This document shows, one piece after another, positions 6,541 to 22,205 of a stretch of DNA of 64,000 nt (positions within the stretch are counted from its first letter, which is position 1; each line of letters opens with the position of its first letter). Origin of the DNA: Candidatus Poseidoniales archaeon. GTDB lineage: Archaea; Thermoplasmatota; Poseidoniia; Poseidoniales; Thalassarchaeaceae. The position numbers and the translations under genes are program-made. Under the pieces are notes generated by a model. It had not been told where the DNA came from, searched no databases, and saw only the letters and a list, made by a program, of their open reading frames with translations. The DNA lies in NCBI GenBank assembly GCA_028283505.1, contig JAPOFX010000007.1:1-64000 (forward strand), read 5' to 3'.

Positions 6541-9425
<2,885 letters not shown>

Positions 9426-15303: not shown

Positions 15304-15606
15304 TCATTCATGTTCATCACTGGGAGATTCCATTCTGTAACCTTCATCCATGCCCACAATTTCATAATTGGACGGGAATAAGGCTACAGCTACTCCTCCA
15401 ATCATACAACCAAGACCAAGAAGAAACTGTCCGGTTATCATCATTTCCAGTGCGATAGCTACTAAAACCAATCCTCCTATATTGGATATCCAAACCAAAT
15501 TTTTGAACGTGGATAGAGATACCCCAGTAGTTCTATCCGTACGCTTTGGGCCAAACTCTGCTCCGAACCTTATTGGGTCATCCTCGCTCATTAAATCACC
15601 TATCAA
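15304..15606 (-). CDS. Two-helix membrane protein, unknown
   Basis: This 100-residue protein is not recognised. A polar N-terminal stretch of about 35 residues precedes two hydrophobic helices (VWISNIGGLVLVAIALEMMI and LLGLGCMIGGVAVALF). The tail is acidic. It overlaps the end of the upstream ferredoxin gene by 11 bases and is followed by ogt after 1 base, so the three genes form one minus-strand transcript. Confidence 0.6.
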   Translation of the reverse strand: MIGDLMSEDDPIRFGAEFGPKRTDRTTGVSLSTFKNLVWISNIGGLVLVAIALEMMITGQFLLGLGCMIGGVAVALFPSNYEIVGMDEGYRMESPSDEHE

Positions 15607-15928
15607 TCATTAGTATCGCGTCTGTCGGGCACGCCAGTACGCACAATTGGCATCCAGTACATGGGTCTCTCAAAACCTTCGCCTTTCTGTTCACCTCTAT
15701 ATTCAGAATTGGGCTGGCTAATGGGGTATCATATAGTTCGATTGCATCATCATCACAAACGATGGTGCACTGGTCACACCCTATGCATTGCTCCTCTTTG
15801 ACCCAAGCCACGGCATCTTCACCACCCTTCAGTTTGGCCTGGTCTTCTGATTTCCTAGCGTCCAAAAGCATTCTAATCCGACGTTGCTCGGATTTTCTTC
15901 TGGCTAGCAAATCTTGAATATCCGTCAA
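15596..15928 (-). CDS. Ferredoxin-like protein with two [4Fe-4S] motifs
   Basis: This 110-residue protein has a charged helical N-terminus of about 40 residues, followed by CIGCDQCTIVC and CTGCQLCVLACP. Both are C-x2-C-x2-C-x3-C sets, so two cubane clusters are likely. The first set ends in Asp-Asp rather than the usual Pro. About 30 residues separate the two motifs. It is a soluble electron carrier or a subunit of an oxidoreductase; the partner is not evident. It is first in a small operon with the two-helix protein and ogt. Confidence 0.8.
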   Translation of the reverse strand: MTDIQDLLARRKSEQRRIRMLLDARKSEDQAKLKGGEDAVAWVKEEQCIGCDQCTIVCDDDAIELYDTPLASPILNIEVNRKAKVLRDPCTGCQLCVLACPTDAILMIDR

Positions 15929-15997: not shown

Positions 15998-16273
15998 GTG
16001 GCGAGCAACATGAAGGCAACCGACCAGTCTTGGTTTCGTGATCCACTTAGCGTAATTGGGCTCTTTCAAGGTGTAATAATATGGTCAGCGATGGCATTCT
16101 TCATCTCCTTGGAGATTGCATGGATCTCTCTCGCTTGTGGAGGAATAATAGGAATTTTCCTTTCGTTGATTGCGCTTGGATATCAGCGATTAGACGTAGC
16201 TAGGTTCACATTATATGGAATAATCCTCAACGCTGTGCTATCGTCATATTCAGCATGGGTGGCATTTATTTGA
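15998..16273 (+). CDS. Small membrane protein, unknown
   Basis: This 91-residue protein has about three hydrophobic segments after a short polar start (DQSWFRDPLS). It is not recognised. The frame opens with GTG at 15998; an in-frame ATG at 16010 is the more likely start. It ends 3 bases before the convergent cytochrome/iron-sulfur fusion gene and is divergent from the ferredoxin gene. Confidence 0.55.
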   Translation: MASNMKATDQSWFRDPLSVIGLFQGVIIWSAMAFFISLEIAWISLACGGIIGIFLSLIALGYQRLDVARFTLYGIILNAVLSSYSAWVAFI

Positions 16274-16276
16274 GTT

Positions 16277-19057
16277 TCATTTTCGACCGGCTTCTACTTG
16301 CCTAGCTAAGAAACTCACAACATCTAAAATCTCGAAATCATGTTTCGGGTCTCCTTCGAACTTTAGACATTCGAAGTGAGAAACGCACTTGGGGCAAGAA
16401 GTTAGCATAATATCGGCTCCTGTGGCATTGACCTCTTCGAACCTCTGAACTCTTAGAGCCCTGCTGTTCTCATTGCAACTCATCATACTAGAGACTCCAC
16501 AGCAAAGTGCGTCCTCTCCATGATGTTCCATCTCTACCAGATCCACCCCATCTACACCAGATATCAGGTCCCTTGGCTGGTCATAGATGTTCATTTGCCT
16601 GCCAAGTCTACATGGGTCATGGAAAGTTACAGTAACATCTTCTTCTGACCTAAGATTCATGTCAAAGCCGTTTTCAACTAGGAACTCAGTGGTGTGCATA
16701 ACTTTCATATCATCCAGCTCATAGTCCATAGCAAATGTTCTGAAGCACTCGGCACAAGATGTGACTAATGTATCAATCCCGCTCTCACCTAGTTTCTTCT
16801 GATTGTATAACTTAAGCTTCTCAAATACCTCAGTCATACCTTGCCATTTCTGATCATGACCACAACACTTCAAGAAGTCCCTTCCTAGATATGTCACATC
16901 TTCCCCCATCTCTTCAAACAGGGTAAATGCAGATGTGGTTGCGTCTCCAAGATTCATTGTACCCTGGTTCACATGACTGAAAATCATCTCCTGATCCAGA
17001 TAGTCTACGCATCCAGGGTAGTAACCGATGTTAGAATCAATTGGGTAATCCTCTATCGACATAAAGTCTTCATCGGCTTCCTCTTCTGCTTCTGCAGCCA
17101 AAACCGCCTGAAGTACAGTGTGGGGTATCTCTGCAGCGGGTGGCCCTCCAACAATCATGTTCCTCCTTATGTCCACATATGAGTCATAATCCACCAGTTG
17201 GGGACAAGCGTTGGTACATGCTGAACATGTCAGGCACGAGTAAAGAGGGACGCCATCGTCCTCATTGTTCCAAGTATTGTAAATGATGTTCAGTTTGTCA
17301 CCTGCGTTGAAGAGCCTTACAGGACAGGCATCGTCACAAAGATCGCAGCCATAGCACTTGTTCATTTCATACTCATATCCTCTAGCCATACTTCTCATCA
17401 GCATGAAGACCAATGCCCCCACTCCCAAGCAAGGAACAAACAAGGAATAGATCAATTTTGCATCCAGGCTCTTCGGATTCTTCTCGAAGGTTGGGTTTTT
17501 CATATACATGGTAGACAGTGTCTCCAAATCCATGGTTGACTCTGACCTGACTACTGCAGTACCATCTTCGTTCAGAAGTAGTGGCTGATATGATATCACA
17601 GAGAAGCTTGTAATGACCTCAACGGAATCATTAATGCCTTGAGAGGTAGTCTGGAAATTCACGGTGTAGCTTTGTCCGGAATCGAGGTAAATGCTTTCTG
17701 AAATGCAACCGTCGGCTCTCCAAACTTCTGATCCGGATGAGTCAGTAAGAATGAGGCTTTGAGTGTGTGTACCTGCATTTCTTACCGACGTTCTGAATAG
17801 GCAACCTATGTCAGTCGGTACTTCTGATACTCCCAAGTCCTCTACCTCAAACGTAAAACTACTGCTGTAAATCACCTCTGATCCATCTTCCAAACCGAAG
17901 AAAGAAGCCCTATCATCTGCGGAATTTCTTCCTGTTTCGCTGTCCGCATGTCCATTATCCCCATTGAAATCAATAATTTTGAATTTTGTTGGTTGGTATA
18001 TTCCCCATTCAGACCAATGTACGGCAGCTATTACACACCAATCAGCTACATCTTCTCCCTCAGCCAGACTATTCCAAGCAGCCAATCCTTGACTCTCCTC
18101 ATATGGTATGCACTCATCTTCCCATTGCCCCCAAACATTTCCTTCTTCAACATGTACAAGAGTATCTGATGGTTGAGCTCTGAGGGCATCCAAATCTTCT
18201 AGATCGTCCATCGCTCCTAGTCCCCCATAGTCCCAGAATCCATTTTCATAAATGGGCCAGGTTACCACGGAAATCAGAACTGCAGCAATTAGGGAACCAA
18301 CCGCCACTTGTCTCCCTATGCGAGGGGTTACTCTGGATCCAACAGAGTTGAGTAGGAACTTCCTGGTTGGGAAGTATATCATGGCGAATAAGAAAATTCC
18401 AGTGAGTATCCAGGGTACGGCGTTGAAAACTTCTGCTGTCCATGGTGCCTGTCGGCCACACATTAACTCTGAATGTGACCCCAAGAAGCAGTAGTCACTG
18501 CGGTCTTTTGCATACAAGTCTAGGAATATGTTGATCGAAAACACCGATATGAACCAAACATGGGCGAGGTAGACTGCACCAGCGGTAGCGAACCAAGGGT
18601 CCTCTACACCTCTCTTCTCTCTGCCGGGGAGAAATGGTGGCAATGCCAAGATTCCAACTGGAAGCCCGGTAATTGCCGCCCCCCACCATGCAGCATTCCA
18701 GTCTATCACGGGAGCTCCTAGGAATTCACCGATAGGGCCAGCAGGAATGACGAACTGAGGTAGATACTCCCCCCATCTGAGATATCCATACGAGAAAAGA
18801 ACATACCAGTCCGGGAACACGAACCCAGCTTGAGCGAATGGATCTGCGGCACTGTGCAAAGGAGGTGGAATGAGCCACGAATAGAATGCTATAGTCATCA
18901 CAATGGAAGCGAAAATAATGGTGTCCCTGAGTACTTCTGTGGGCCAAAAGGGATGCCCTGTGAAGGTACGCCTCCTTTCTTTATCAGCTTCTAAGAGCTT
19001 ATCTCTCTCGCTAATGTATGTGTCAGCGATTCTACCAAATCTTTCAATCATGCCCAT
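16277..19057 (-). CDS. Cytochrome b C-terminal domain fused to an HdrD-like iron-sulfur module
   Basis: This protein has about 926 residues from the ATG at 19057, which has a GAGGT element upstream; the frame extends to 19084 and numbering here uses that longer frame. Residues 50-280 carry about six membrane segments like b6f subunit IV, with PDWYVLF at 91-97 in the place of the PEWY motif of the quinol site. Residues 280-540 form a polar domain with few cysteines, followed by a membrane helix at 545-562. Then come two ferredoxin motifs (C577/580/583/587 and C617/620/623/627) and two CCG domains. Both cysteine sets are complete: C692, C740-C741, C777, C780 and C825, C861-C862, C897, C900. This matches HdrB/HdrD non-cubane cluster ligands. 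It would link quinol oxidation to a cytoplasmic iron-sulfur or thiol reaction. Confidence 0.88.
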   Translation of the reverse strand: MGMIERFGRIADTYISERDKLLEADKERRRTFTGHPFWPTEVLRDTIIFASIVMTIAFYSWLIPPPLHSAADPFAQAGFVFPDWYVLFSYGYLRWGEYLPQFVIPAGPIGEFLGAPVIDWNAAWWGAAITGLPVGILALPPFLPGREKRGVEDPWFATAGAVYLAHVWFISVFSINIFLDLYAKDRSDYCFLGSHSELMCGRQAPWTAEVFNAVPWILTGIFLFAMIYFPTRKFLLNSVGSRVTPRIGRQVAVGSLIAAVLISVVTWPIYENGFWDYGGLGAMDDLEDLDALRAQPSDTLVHVEEGNVWGQWEDECIPYEESQGLAAWNSLAEGEDVADWCVIAAVHWSEWGIYQPTKFKIIDFNGDNGHADSETGRNSADDRASFFGLEDGSEVIYSSSFTFEVEDLGVSEVPTDIGCLFRTSVRNAGTHTQSLILTDSSGSEVWRADGCISESIYLDSGQSYTVNFQTTSQGINDSVEVITSFSVISYQPLLLNEDGTAVVRSESTMDLETLSTMYMKNPTFEKNPKSLDAKLIYSLFVPCLGVGALVFMLMRSMARGYEYEMNKCYGCDLCDDACPVRLFNAGDKLNIIYNTWNNEDDGVPLYSCLTCSACTNACPQLVDYDSYVDIRRNMIVGGPPAAEIPHTVLQAVLAAEAEEEADEDFMSIEDYPIDSNIGYYPGCVDYLDQEMIFSHVNQGTMNLGDATTSAFTLFEEMGEDVTYLGRDFLKCCGHDQKWQGMTEVFEKLKLYNQKKLGESGIDTLVTSCAECFRTFAMDYELDDMKVMHTTEFLVENGFDMNLRSEEDVTVTFHDPCRLGRQMNIYDQPRDLISGVDGVDLVEMEHHGEDALCCGVSSMMSCNENSRALRVQRFEEVNATGADIMLTSCPKCVSHFECLKFEGDPKHDFEILDVVSFLARQVEAGRK

Positions 19058-19067
19058 GATATCAACC

Positions 19068-19943
19068 TCAGTGTGGCTCCGCAATTCCTTGTGCCCAAAC
19101 TATGAACAAGTGAGCAAGAATCAGAGTGGTGACTACAACAGGTAGGATGAAAACATGAAGGAAATACATTCTTGTTACTGTTTGGCCAGTCACTGTAGTG
19201 CCAGCAAACATAGCTGTGGCGACCCATCCTCCGATTAATGGTGTGGAGTTGGCCATGTTGATTCCGATAGTGGCCGCGCCAAACGCCAGGCTGTCCCATG
19301 GAAGCAGATATCCTGAGTAGCCAAAGAAGATTGTGAAGAACATCAGGGCAACACCAATCAGCCAGTTGAGCTCACGAGGATTTCTGTAGGCCCCAGTAAA
19401 GTACACCCTGCACATGTGCAAGAAAACAGCCGCGACCATGAAATGTGTGGTCCAGTGATGAATGGATCTAATGATGTATCCGAATGGGAGTTGGGTCATG
19501 ATGAACTCCATACTGCTGTACGCAGGAGTTGGATCCCCCTCTCCTCCGGGGACATAGTACAGTCCGAGGACGGTACCAGTAATCACAAGAATTACGAACG
19601 CGAGGAAAGAGATTCCCCCGAGGCAGTACAGGGGATACCAGTACCATATTATTCTGAGCTTGTACTTCTCAGCATGTGTCATAGGCATCTGTCTGTGCAT
19701 ACCGTAATATGCATCCCTGCTCATACCCCAGTAGTCTTGAATCCTGAACCTAGTATCCAACCAAGAAAAGGCCCACAGGAATGTCTTCTCGGCCAGCCCC
19801 ATACTACTTGCACTAGTTTCCACGGCTCGAAGGATGTCCTTCCTCGGCATTTCCTCCCTTTCTTTTCTGAGAGTGAGGGCCACTATTACAACAACTAAAG
19901 TGATGAAAACCCAAAGGAACCAAAATTGAATCATCTCATTCAC
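19068..19943 (-). CDS. Cytochrome b6-like protein
   Basis: This 291-residue protein is the N-terminal, heme-binding half of a bc-type cytochrome b. An additional N-terminal helix and a linker of about 90 residues precede the core. Four candidate heme ligands are present: H162 and H176, spaced 14, and H263 and H278, spaced 15. The 14/15 spacing is that of b6-type proteins. The heme pocket motif GYLLPWDSLAFGAATIG is intact. It forms the core of the quinol-oxidising complex with the Rieske protein, encoded 1 base upstream, and the fused subunit encoded next. Confidence 0.93.
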   Translation of the reverse strand: MNEMIQFWFLWVFITLVVVIVALTLRKEREEMPRKDILRAVETSASSMGLAEKTFLWAFSWLDTRFRIQDYWGMSRDAYYGMHRQMPMTHAEKYKLRIIWYWYPLYCLGGISFLAFVILVITGTVLGLYYVPGGEGDPTPAYSSMEFIMTQLPFGYIIRSIHHWTTHFMVAAVFLHMCRVYFTGAYRNPRELNWLIGVALMFFTIFFGYSGYLLPWDSLAFGAATIGINMANSTPLIGGWVATAMFAGTTVTGQTVTRMYFLHVFILPVVVTTLILAHLFIVWAQGIAEPH

Positions 19944-19944
19944 C

Positions 19945-20799
19945 TCAGTCGCAATACGTATACCAATCCTTAAAATCTGGCAAGGCCTCTATCAAATCTC
20001 CGTTCAGTACGAAGGGTATCAGTGGCATCCCCATTGGGGCCGGGCCACCGGCCTTCTTAATACCAATGAAATCGAACTCTGCCCCACTAGATCTGTTTCG
20101 TGCCCTATTTTTTTCGATTACTGTTGGGTCAAATCTTGATGAATGGCAGATACAGAATAATTTACTTCCGCCAGAGTCTGTGCCATTAGGAACCCATTGA
20201 TCCTCGGTAAACTCGTTCGTCACTAGTTGCCATCCAGGGATACAACATAGATGCGTGCATCTGGAGAAAATAAGGATTAAATTGTCATGGATTGAAAGTG
20301 TCTCGTACTGTGGGTCCTCATCAAGCTCATATCCCGAGCCAACATATTTCCCATCCACCGTGTAACCGTCCATAAACTGGAATCTGGGTTTGTCTTGAAT
20401 GAGGTCAGAGCCCTTGTTTTCTTCATGAGGGACGTAAACGGCGTTCACTGGCATTCCCGACCACACACCTTGAGCAGCTGACATCCCGGTCGAGGAACTT
20501 GATGCAGCATCTACAAACGATTGGTATGTCATAGGCTCCAAGTGCTTATCCCCGTACCAGACTGAATCCTCAGCCCCGGTTGGAACCCAATATCTGACTG
20601 CAGTATCTCCTCCTGAAGAATCTGATTGACCCATAAGGAGTGCAGCAAAACCTACGCTAGTTAGGCCTGCCATGGTAATTACCCCTGCGGCTGTGTTGAA
20701 GGAATGTCTCATAAATTGCCTCCTGTCAATCATGTGAATGTCTGAATCGTTACCTTCGGCCCCTTCCGAAGTATCCCTCAGTGTGAATTTCCTCGCCAT
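19945..20799 (-). CDS. Rieske [2Fe-2S] protein
   Basis: This 284-residue protein contains a twin-arginine-like DRRQFM at residues 25-30 followed by a hydrophobic helix, so Tat-dependent export with a retained anchor is likely. Box 1 is CTHLCC (181-186) and box 2 is CICHSS (216-221). Ligands would be C181, H183, C216 and H219, with a C186-C218 disulfide. An extra cysteine sits at 185. An insertion of about 30 residues separates the boxes (EFTEDQWVPNGTDSGGS). It passes electrons from quinol to an extracytoplasmic acceptor. Confidence 0.93.
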   Translation of the reverse strand: MARKFTLRDTSEGAEGNDSDIHMIDRRQFMRHSFNTAAGVITMAGLTSVGFAALLMGQSDSSGGDTAVRYWVPTGAEDSVWYGDKHLEPMTYQSFVDAASSSSTGMSAAQGVWSGMPVNAVYVPHEENKGSDLIQDKPRFQFMDGYTVDGKYVGSGYELDEDPQYETLSIHDNLILIFSRCTHLCCIPGWQLVTNEFTEDQWVPNGTDSGGSKLFCICHSSRFDPTVIEKNRARNRSSGAEFDFIGIKKAGGPAPMGMPLIPFVLNGDLIEALPDFKDWYTYCD

Positions 20800-20802
20800 C
20801 TT

Positions 20803-21252
20803 CTAGACCTCATATTTTTTCCAAGACTCGGGGTCTTTCGCTGTGATGTATTTATTTCTCCTACTCTTCACTATTACTATGTCAGGCATAACGTACTTCA
20901 TGTATATCATACCCAGTATAATCACTGTCAGGAGCAGCATCCCCAGGAAAAAAGAAAGCATCTGCTGGTCCCACTTGTTGTAAAGCCCGTATGATAGTGA
21001 TCCGGCCCAGTATAATGACCACACTATCCCCCACAGGCCAACTAGTATGATTAGCCATGAGTCGCCCGAAGGAGATACGCTGGCTCTTACTATTGAGCCA
21101 GCTGGGGCCTCGTTGAACACGCCATGCTCTATTGCTGACTCATACGCTTCCTCGGATAACGATATACCGTCCAAGGCATCTCTGGCGTCTTCTACGCTTA
21201 CCTCCCCAGAGGCTACTTGCCTCAACATCTTCATGACTACATCGTCTTTCAT
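20803..21252 (-). CDS. Membrane protein of the Rieske/cytochrome b operon
   Basis: This 149-residue protein is not recognised. The N-terminal 60 residues are soluble and include a helical segment (QVASGEVSVEDARDALDGI) that resembles a short SHOCT-like helix pair. Two membrane helices follow near residues 67-90 and 98-120, then a basic tail. It overlaps the CXCH-protein stop by one base and is 3 bases from the Rieske gene. An accessory or assembly subunit of the complex is a reasonable guess. Confidence 0.65.
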   Translation of the reverse strand: MKDDVVMKMLRQVASGEVSVEDARDALDGISLSEEAYESAIEHGVFNEAPAGSIVRASVSPSGDSWLIILVGLWGIVWSLYWAGSLSYGLYNKWDQQMLSFFLGMLLLTVIILGMIYMKYVMPDIVIVKSRRNKYITAKDPESWKKYEV

Positions 21253-22061
21253 TACTGATCACCCCTTCTCTGATGTTTTATCCTCAACCTCAGCAAGTTA
21301 CTCCTTCCTTCATAATGCCTGGAAAATCCGTATCTCAACATTAGTCCGCAGAAAATAATCACAATCACAACTGCTGCGAATCCCAGCAGGCCCAACCAAT
21401 GTGCCCTCATTCCAGCTCCCATGTGGTGTAAATCTACTCCTTCTTCAACAGGGGCAGGGGGCTCTATGTCCCCATTTCCGACAAACACCGTACGGACCCC
21501 GCCAAACTCACCTTCATCCATTGAAGCGCTGAGGCGATTCCACCTATCGAGTTGCGAAGGAATACCATCTCCATTTACGGAATTCCCAGCTAGCCATATG
21601 GTCACCACTCCCGTTTCCTCAGGGGGGGCCGTCCATGTTATGTGCCATGTTCTATCTGGAACCTTGGATCCAGAGTTGGTGTGTGTCAGAGAGGTCACAT
21701 CGTCCTCCCAGTTGTACACGAGGGCCTCTGATCCTTCTGAGGCAGCTAGTGATCCACCGCTAACTCGCATAGAGAACCCCCCGGTATGAGATGCAGTATC
21801 TGCAGGAGGGCCTCCGATAATCTGAATTACCATCTCGTATGATTCCCCCGGCTCATAACGGTAAGGAACATCGGTCAGGATTAGAGTAACGGAATTATCC
21901 GGCTCATCGGCGTGGCATGTGCATCCTGCTAGAGCGACATCGCCCTCGTTGTTTGCATCCCCTCCTATACCGGTAGGATTTGCCTGAGAGCCTCCTGCAG
22001 CCAGAACAGCGACTAAGCTGATAGTCAGCATCTTCCTCACTGTAAGCATACTAGACGCCAT
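21252..22061 (-). CDS. Secreted, membrane-anchored CXCH protein (reeler/anchor-V-like)
   Basis: This protein has about 269 residues from the ATG at 22061, which has AAAGGTG upstream; the frame extends to 22088. A signal peptide is followed by LAGCTCHADE. That motif is CXCH, one residue shorter than the CXXCH heme c motif. A beta-sandwich domain follows (VPYRYEPGESYEMVIQI, SHTGGFSMRVSGG), similar to reeler or choice-of-anchor-V domains whose bacterial members carry CxxCHGG. A C-terminal helix and basic tail anchor it. It is the first gene of the operon and could be the electron acceptor of the Rieske protein. A paralogue begins at 63799. Confidence 0.75.
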   Translation of the reverse strand: MASSMLTVRKMLTISLVAVLAAGGSQANPTGIGGDANNEGDVALAGCTCHADEPDNSVTLILTDVPYRYEPGESYEMVIQIIGGPPADTASHTGGFSMRVSGGSLAASEGSEALVYNWEDDVTSLTHTNSGSKVPDRTWHITWTAPPEETGVVTIWLAGNSVNGDGIPSQLDRWNRLSASMDEGEFGGVRTVFVGNGDIEPPAPVEEGVDLHHMGAGMRAHWLGLLGFAAVVIVIIFCGLMLRYGFSRHYEGRSNLLRLRIKHQRRGDQ

Positions 22062-22205
22062 ACACAACACCTTTGGTGAACATGCCACTTGAAAGGGGGC
22101 TATTAACGTTGCATTGTCGGACTGTCAAACCAAACCCCGAAACGTGCCAATTTGTGACTTCCACGGCCACACCAAGCTAATATGTTGGAGCCCCAAGGCA
22201 AACTT

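Follow-up and report, generated by a model that had tools for sequence, protein, structure and literature searches.

A cytochrome b6f-like complex of Poseidoniales with a heterodisulfide reductase-type iron-sulfur arm fused to subunit IV

Complexes of the cytochrome bc type normally send electrons outward only. A single gene from a member of the Poseidoniales (Marine Group II), an order that ranks with the most abundant archaea in sunlit ocean waters, raises the question of whether a complex III can also trade electrons with the cytoplasm. The gene (16277..19057, minus strand, 926 aa) lies in a window of 64,000 nucleotides and encodes a domain resembling subunit IV of cytochrome b6f, followed by an outside domain, two ferredoxin motifs and two CCG domains. 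An earlier note made from the letters of this DNA had described such a frame, with a return helix and two complete CCG sites, and had proposed a bc complex with a cytoplasmic redox centre. The reading frame, the motifs and all of the cysteine spacings were confirmed, and we conclude that the fused arm of the heterodisulfide reductase (Hdr) type probably allows this complex III to exchange electrons with the cytoplasm.

The ATG at 19057 was assigned as the start because Met1 is invariant in 43 aligned homologues. In this frame the PDWY motif, a PEWY-type signature of the quinol oxidation site that is conserved in 101 sequences, occupies residues 82 to 85 (18803..18814), corresponding to residues 91 to 94 of a longer frame opening with TTG. 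No Pfam match was obtained for the subunit IV part of the Poseidoniales protein itself; residues 20 to 95 aligned with b6f subunit IV structures (7r0w_J, E = 0.0019; 2e74_B, E = 0.0037), and orthologues of this part in two other families exceeded the PF00032 Cytochrom_B_C cut-off. The ferredoxin motifs, beginning at C568 and C608 (C568 to C618, 17204..17356), were matched by Pfam Fer4 and have conserved cysteines, while the CCG model matched twice (8.4e-22). CCG domain 1 (16745..17011) has the spacing C683-x47-C731C732-x35-C768-x2-C771 and CCG domain 2 (16385..16612) the spacing C816-x35-C852C853-x34-C888-x2-C891, so that all ten CCG cysteines are present and conserved and two potentially complete non-cubane sites are available. 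Hydropathy and charge indicated six transmembrane helices, the last being a return helix at residues 535 to 553 (17399..17455), and placed everything after residue 553 inside. The preceding 265-residue loop (residues 270 to 534, 17456..18250) is acidic, with 13 K/R against 48 D/E, and was placed outside. This domain bears a weak resemblance to GOLD/beta-sandwich folds, contains no heme motif and is missing from fusions beyond Poseidoniales. The AlphaFold model of the whole chain (pLDDT 61) was too weak for cluster placement; its use was confined to the outside domain and to a match of the CCG fold to EtfD, LutA and HdrB. The outside domain of about 260 residues, the return helix and the inside location of the iron-sulfur arm were thus upheld, and the fusion and the location of its arm support the proposal that a bc complex here bears a redox module on its cytoplasmic side.

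A chimeric assembly or misjoined genes would have explained this unusual architecture. Of the 82 Poseidoniales genomes sampled, from two families, 70 carried the full-length fusion as a single open reading frame, a one-contig genome (G037) among them; the rest mostly gave partial matches or fragments at contig ends. Independent public genomes also carry the fusion, with constant gene order. An artefact is therefore rejected, its probability being practically nil, and the break or separation into individual genes by which the earlier note could have been overturned was not encountered in these 70 genomes. The 18 cluster cysteines (8 ferredoxin and 10 CCG) were 98 to 100% conserved across a set of 101 distinct sequences. 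When 84,980 species genomes were scanned with peptides of this protein, a search limited to close relatives, 137 relatives were detected; the 80 that were listed all bore the label Marine Group II, Poseidoniales, Thalassarchaeaceae or unresolved Euryarchaeota. Searches for the same fusion in a plasmid collection that included haloarchaea detected CCG proteins only, none covering 80% of the query. Fusions may exist beyond Thermoplasmatota.

The fusion gene starts 10 bases downstream of a cytochrome b6-like gene (19068..19943), which is itself preceded on the minus strand by genes for a Rieske iron-sulfur protein (19945..20799), a small DUF7318 membrane protein (20803..21252) and a choice-of-anchor V domain protein (21252..22088). 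These four genes formed an operon in 75 of 75 loci, the Rieske gene being a neighbour in each. The cytochrome b6-like protein matched PF00033 at 8e-42, and its heme-ligand pairs H162-x13-H176 and H263-x14-H278 were present in 100% of 96 sequences. C107, at the position of the cysteine that binds heme c_n in b6, was conserved in 92 of the 96 (96%) and replaced by Ser in some Marine Group III sequences. The Rieske protein (CTHLCC ... CICH) matched TIGR01416 (9.7e-10), below the curated cut-off; its first box, CTHLCC, has one Cys more than the usual CTHLGC throughout the order. No CxxCH motif indicative of a c1- or f-type partner was found in the operon proteins as read, and a canonical bc1 complex has not been reported in Marine Group II (PMC6336850). 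The choice-of-anchor V protein, which has a C-terminal transmembrane helix and a conserved CxCH and was always present in the bc operon, is a possible outside subunit in place of a c-type cytochrome. A gene for an FAD/NAD(P) oxidoreductase was sought in the operon and was not detected.

A single PF00033 cytochrome b, that of this operon, was found in each of 10 genomes checked, so the fusion complex is the only complex III in these genomes. A haem-copper oxidase was detected in 9 of the 10. Taken together, these two observations imply that the complex carries the ordinary flux from quinol to oxidase and that the arm is an addition. All genomes checked encoded 2-oxoacid:ferredoxin oxidoreductase and the 49-kDa subunit of complex I, while the NADH-binding NuoF (51K) subunit was not found in any of the eight genomes checked from Poseidoniales and Marine Group III; ferredoxin is therefore probably a main carrier. 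The literature terms this NuoF-less complex I canonical. The genome has electron-transferring flavoprotein (ETF) genes and separately encodes both an EtfD-type protein (L126:8429-10549) and a succinate dehydrogenase anchor of the CCG-type SdhE kind (L127), and the fusion is thus not needed for those tasks. The SdhB of the same genome (C1) has an N-terminal flavodoxin domain (CysJ-type, 1.9e-43), and the adjoining SdhE anchor has lost most of its CCG cysteines (L127:8393-10045 and 7533-8396).

Downstream of the fusion lies a gene for a 110-aa 2x[4Fe-4S] ferredoxin (15596..15928, minus strand), a candidate electron partner, paired with a gene for a 100-aa membrane protein (15304..15606, minus strand). 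In 72 of 77 loci the ferredoxin gene was detected no more than 3 kb away from the fusion (same strand in 65, opposite strand in 7); it was not found in the other 5. All eight of its cysteines were at least 99% conserved. Its best model was RnfB, with a score (6e-14) that falls short of the curated cut-off. The protein may therefore correspond to the 'RnfB without Rnf' described from Marine Group II, where an 'MGII-specific' complex III and an orphan RnfB were both noted without explanation (PMC6336850). The two probably belong to one machine. Between the fusion and ferredoxin genes, some genera have a 91-aa membrane open reading frame (15998-16273, plus strand in this window, strand varying) for which a family search gave no match. 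The same slot is occupied in Marine Group III by a ferredoxin or a flavodoxin-ferredoxin fusion, in family f22 by a ferredoxin and in family f25 by an HdrA-like N-terminus; the ferredoxins of these relatives are larger than the 110-aa protein. The flavodoxin-ferredoxin fusions (L133:7007-8044; L134:6949-7941) lie directly 3′ of the bc-Hdr operon, and their flavodoxin resembles that fused to SdhB in Poseidoniales.

Fused orthologues were present in two distant families of Thermoplasmatota, f22 (L129, 791 aa) and f25 (L130, about 592 aa), in both cases without the outside domain and with scores over the Pfam cut-offs for Cytochrom_B_C and CCG. The cytochrome b proteins of these loci (L129:9089-10975; L130:413-3610) have unusual long N-terminal extensions, including a Big_5 Ig-like domain in f22. 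In Marine Group III (L131 to L135), the same operon encodes subunit IV and the two Fer4 motifs in one gene and the two CCG domains in the next; the frames of the two genes overlap, and one CCG1 ligand has been lost. A tree of the iron-sulfur module united Poseidoniales, f22, f25 and Marine Group III in one clade (support 1.0) with the fused f25 protein at its base, and the split in Marine Group III is therefore probably secondary. The nearest sisters of the clade, with weak support (0.42), were HdrD-like proteins of HdrA-rich Thermoplasmatota. The f25 genome itself (G091, 81% complete) has very many HdrA matches alongside the fused operon, and a haem-copper oxidase was not found in its 81%-complete assembly. 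This combination hints at an anaerobic origin of the operon, followed by a later move into aerobic respiration.

Whether the arm is a catalytic site or a conduit depends on its CCG residues. Both sites keep ten of ten HdrB cysteines, including the bridging positions, in Poseidoniales, f22 and f25, matching those in HdrB structures, whereas GlpC, GlcF and EtfD keep only four of the five CCG1 cysteines. The nearest solved structure to the arm was that of EtfD (9ojn), in which a Thr in CCG1 and a capping His (CPHC) mark a non-catalytic conduit (PMC13083937). Both marks (Thr539 and His583) are absent from the fusion, which has CC and CAEC where the EtfD of the same genome has CS and CPHC. EtfD was rejected as the identity of the fusion on these residues and on the membrane domain, which is subunit IV-like rather than NarI-like. 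The position of the capping His is occupied by an invariant Glu770, which could ligate or cap the cluster, leaving an open catalytic site uncertain. The best NCBIfam match was to TfrB, a CoM/CoB thiol enzyme, below the curated cut-off. The residues of the arm thus favour an Hdr-like site without proving it.

Architecture, cofactor ligands, topology, operon and conservation can be read directly from the DNA; the direction and partners of electron flow can be proposed from them. In the mechanism that we prefer, quinol oxidation would still send electrons outward via the Rieske protein and on to the terminal oxidase, while electrons would also pass between the CCG clusters, the two [4Fe-4S] clusters, heme c_n/b_H and quinone at the inner site (Qn). 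The neighbouring ferredoxin, fed by 2-oxoacid:ferredoxin oxidoreductases, would be the likely cytoplasmic partner, and a small thiol/disulfide couple may also act at the CCG pair. The main direction would probably be inward, from reduced ferredoxin or thiol to quinone, although the reverse is only somewhat less probable. We give about an even chance to such an exchange between the arm and the inner quinone site with ferredoxin as the likely partner. It would be a hard-wired analogue of the ferredoxin-to-quinone route proposed for cyclic electron flow in b6f, where heme c_n is the suggested entry for ferredoxin electrons (PMC9342900). Against this mechanism, the ferredoxin gene is on the opposite strand or was not found in a minority of loci, and in some Marine Group III members the c_n cysteine and one CCG1 ligand are missing. 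An inward route that does not pump would also be wasteful, because ferredoxin oxidation could be coupled to ion pumping by the NuoF-less complex I, an objection likewise raised for the anammox complex (PMC12954380). Moreover, two complete CCG sites exceed the needs of a simple conduit, for which GlpC, GlcF and EtfD make do with an incomplete CCG1.

The main rival, an idea of the earlier note, is bifurcation at the quinol site, with one electron passing via the Rieske protein to oxygen and the other via b_L, b_H/c_n and [4Fe-4S] to the CCG pair, reducing a disulfide or ferredoxin inside. The intact HdrB-type cysteines, the missing EtfD marks and the match to TfrB all speak for it, as does the order membrane helix-Fer4-CCG, which is that of HdrE-HdrD. 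Bifurcation at the quinol site is, furthermore, common to all such complexes, and an NAD(P)-reducing form has been proposed in anammox bacteria (PMC12954380). Against it stand the absence of evidence for CoM/CoB, or for any other known substrate, in these archaea; the oxygen sensitivity expected of open non-cubane clusters (PMC13083937), in hosts that are aerobes; the possible capping of the second cluster by Glu770, in the manner of His583 in EtfD; and the reduced ferredoxin that aerobes oxidising 2-oxoacids already produce. Bifurcation is therefore considered rather unlikely, though deserving of weight, and its specific form, in which an HdrB-type double non-cubane acceptor passes electrons to thiol/disulfide or ferredoxin inside and oxygen is reduced outside, is unlikely. 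If true, quinone-based bifurcation would stand in place of flavin-based bifurcation by HdrA in aerobic archaea. HdrA is the flavin subunit that bifurcates; only weak domain matches and no HdrA were found in the checked Poseidoniales genomes, and HdrA-based bifurcation was rejected for them. That the arm conducts electrons from the cytoplasm to the quinone site is at least as likely as bifurcation, confurcation or thiol chemistry.

Two other explanations were weighed against conduction from ferredoxin. The arm might be an EtfD/GlpC-like conduit at which a soluble flavoprotein dehydrogenase or ETF docks, passing electrons to quinone within complex III. The quinone-linked proteins GlpC, GlcF, EtfD and SdhE do take electrons from flavins, EtfD is the closest solved structure and ETF genes are present. 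The genome has separate EtfD-type and CCG-type SdhE proteins for such work, though, the EtfD-diagnostic residues are missing and the conserved neighbour is a ferredoxin, a flavodoxin domain occurring there in just two (L133 and L134) of the Marine Group III loci read; flavoprotein docking is accordingly held to be improbable. A structural arm or redox sensor with no net electron flux, for example one controlling activity at Qn, would fit the retention of the module in Marine Group III despite the lost CCG1 ligand. Conservation of the 18 cluster cysteines across two families and beyond, together with a conserved ferredoxin partner, makes this very improbable.

Electron exchange through the arm would represent a natural, hard-wired connection at the inner quinone site/heme c_n, of relevance to the disputed route by which ferredoxin electrons would enter cytochrome b6f during cyclic photosynthesis. 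One protein here unites the heterodisulfide reductase family with that of the Rieske/cytochrome b complexes. The complex resembles cytochrome b6f in its split four-helix cytochrome b, two bis-His sites, c_n-type Cys, P(E/D)WY subunit IV and Rieske protein; it differs in that the operon contains no cytochrome f/c1 or CxxCH heme protein and in the extra helices, outside domain and inside iron-sulfur arm of subunit IV. In the HdrBC/HdrD and TfrB proteins, too, a pair of [4Fe-4S] motifs precedes a pair of CCG domains, but the b-type cytochrome HdrE serves as the anchor of HdrD, and soluble HdrA as that of HdrBC, whereas the anchor here is a bc-type subunit IV. EtfD, the mycobacterial ETF:menaquinone oxidoreductase, likewise combines a membrane part, two [4Fe-4S] clusters and two CCG domains facing the cytoplasm in one chain; its membrane domain is NarI-like, its CCG1 is incomplete (linear [3Fe-4S]) and its second cluster is His capped. 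The Kuenenia (anammox) complexes Kustd1480-1485 and Kuste4569-4574 share a b6f-like core, an enlarged subunit IV, a cytoplasmic redox module and a proposed heme c_N path, but in them the module is an FAD/NAD(P) oxidoreductase of its own, containing [4Fe-4S]/[3Fe-4S] clusters and accompanied by multiheme cytochromes c (PMC12954380), in place of which Poseidoniales have the fused HdrBC-type CCG module and a ferredoxin. The earlier claim that no complex of this form had been described therefore holds for the CCG fusion, of which no published example was found in the mostly open-access literature searched, but not for the inner arm, since a cytoplasmic NAD(P) oxidoreductase arm on a Rieske/cytochrome b complex was already known from anammox (PMC12954380). 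The feature without a counterpart in the papers searched is the joining of a bc-type subunit to an HdrBC module in what serves an order of aerobic marine archaea as its sole complex III.
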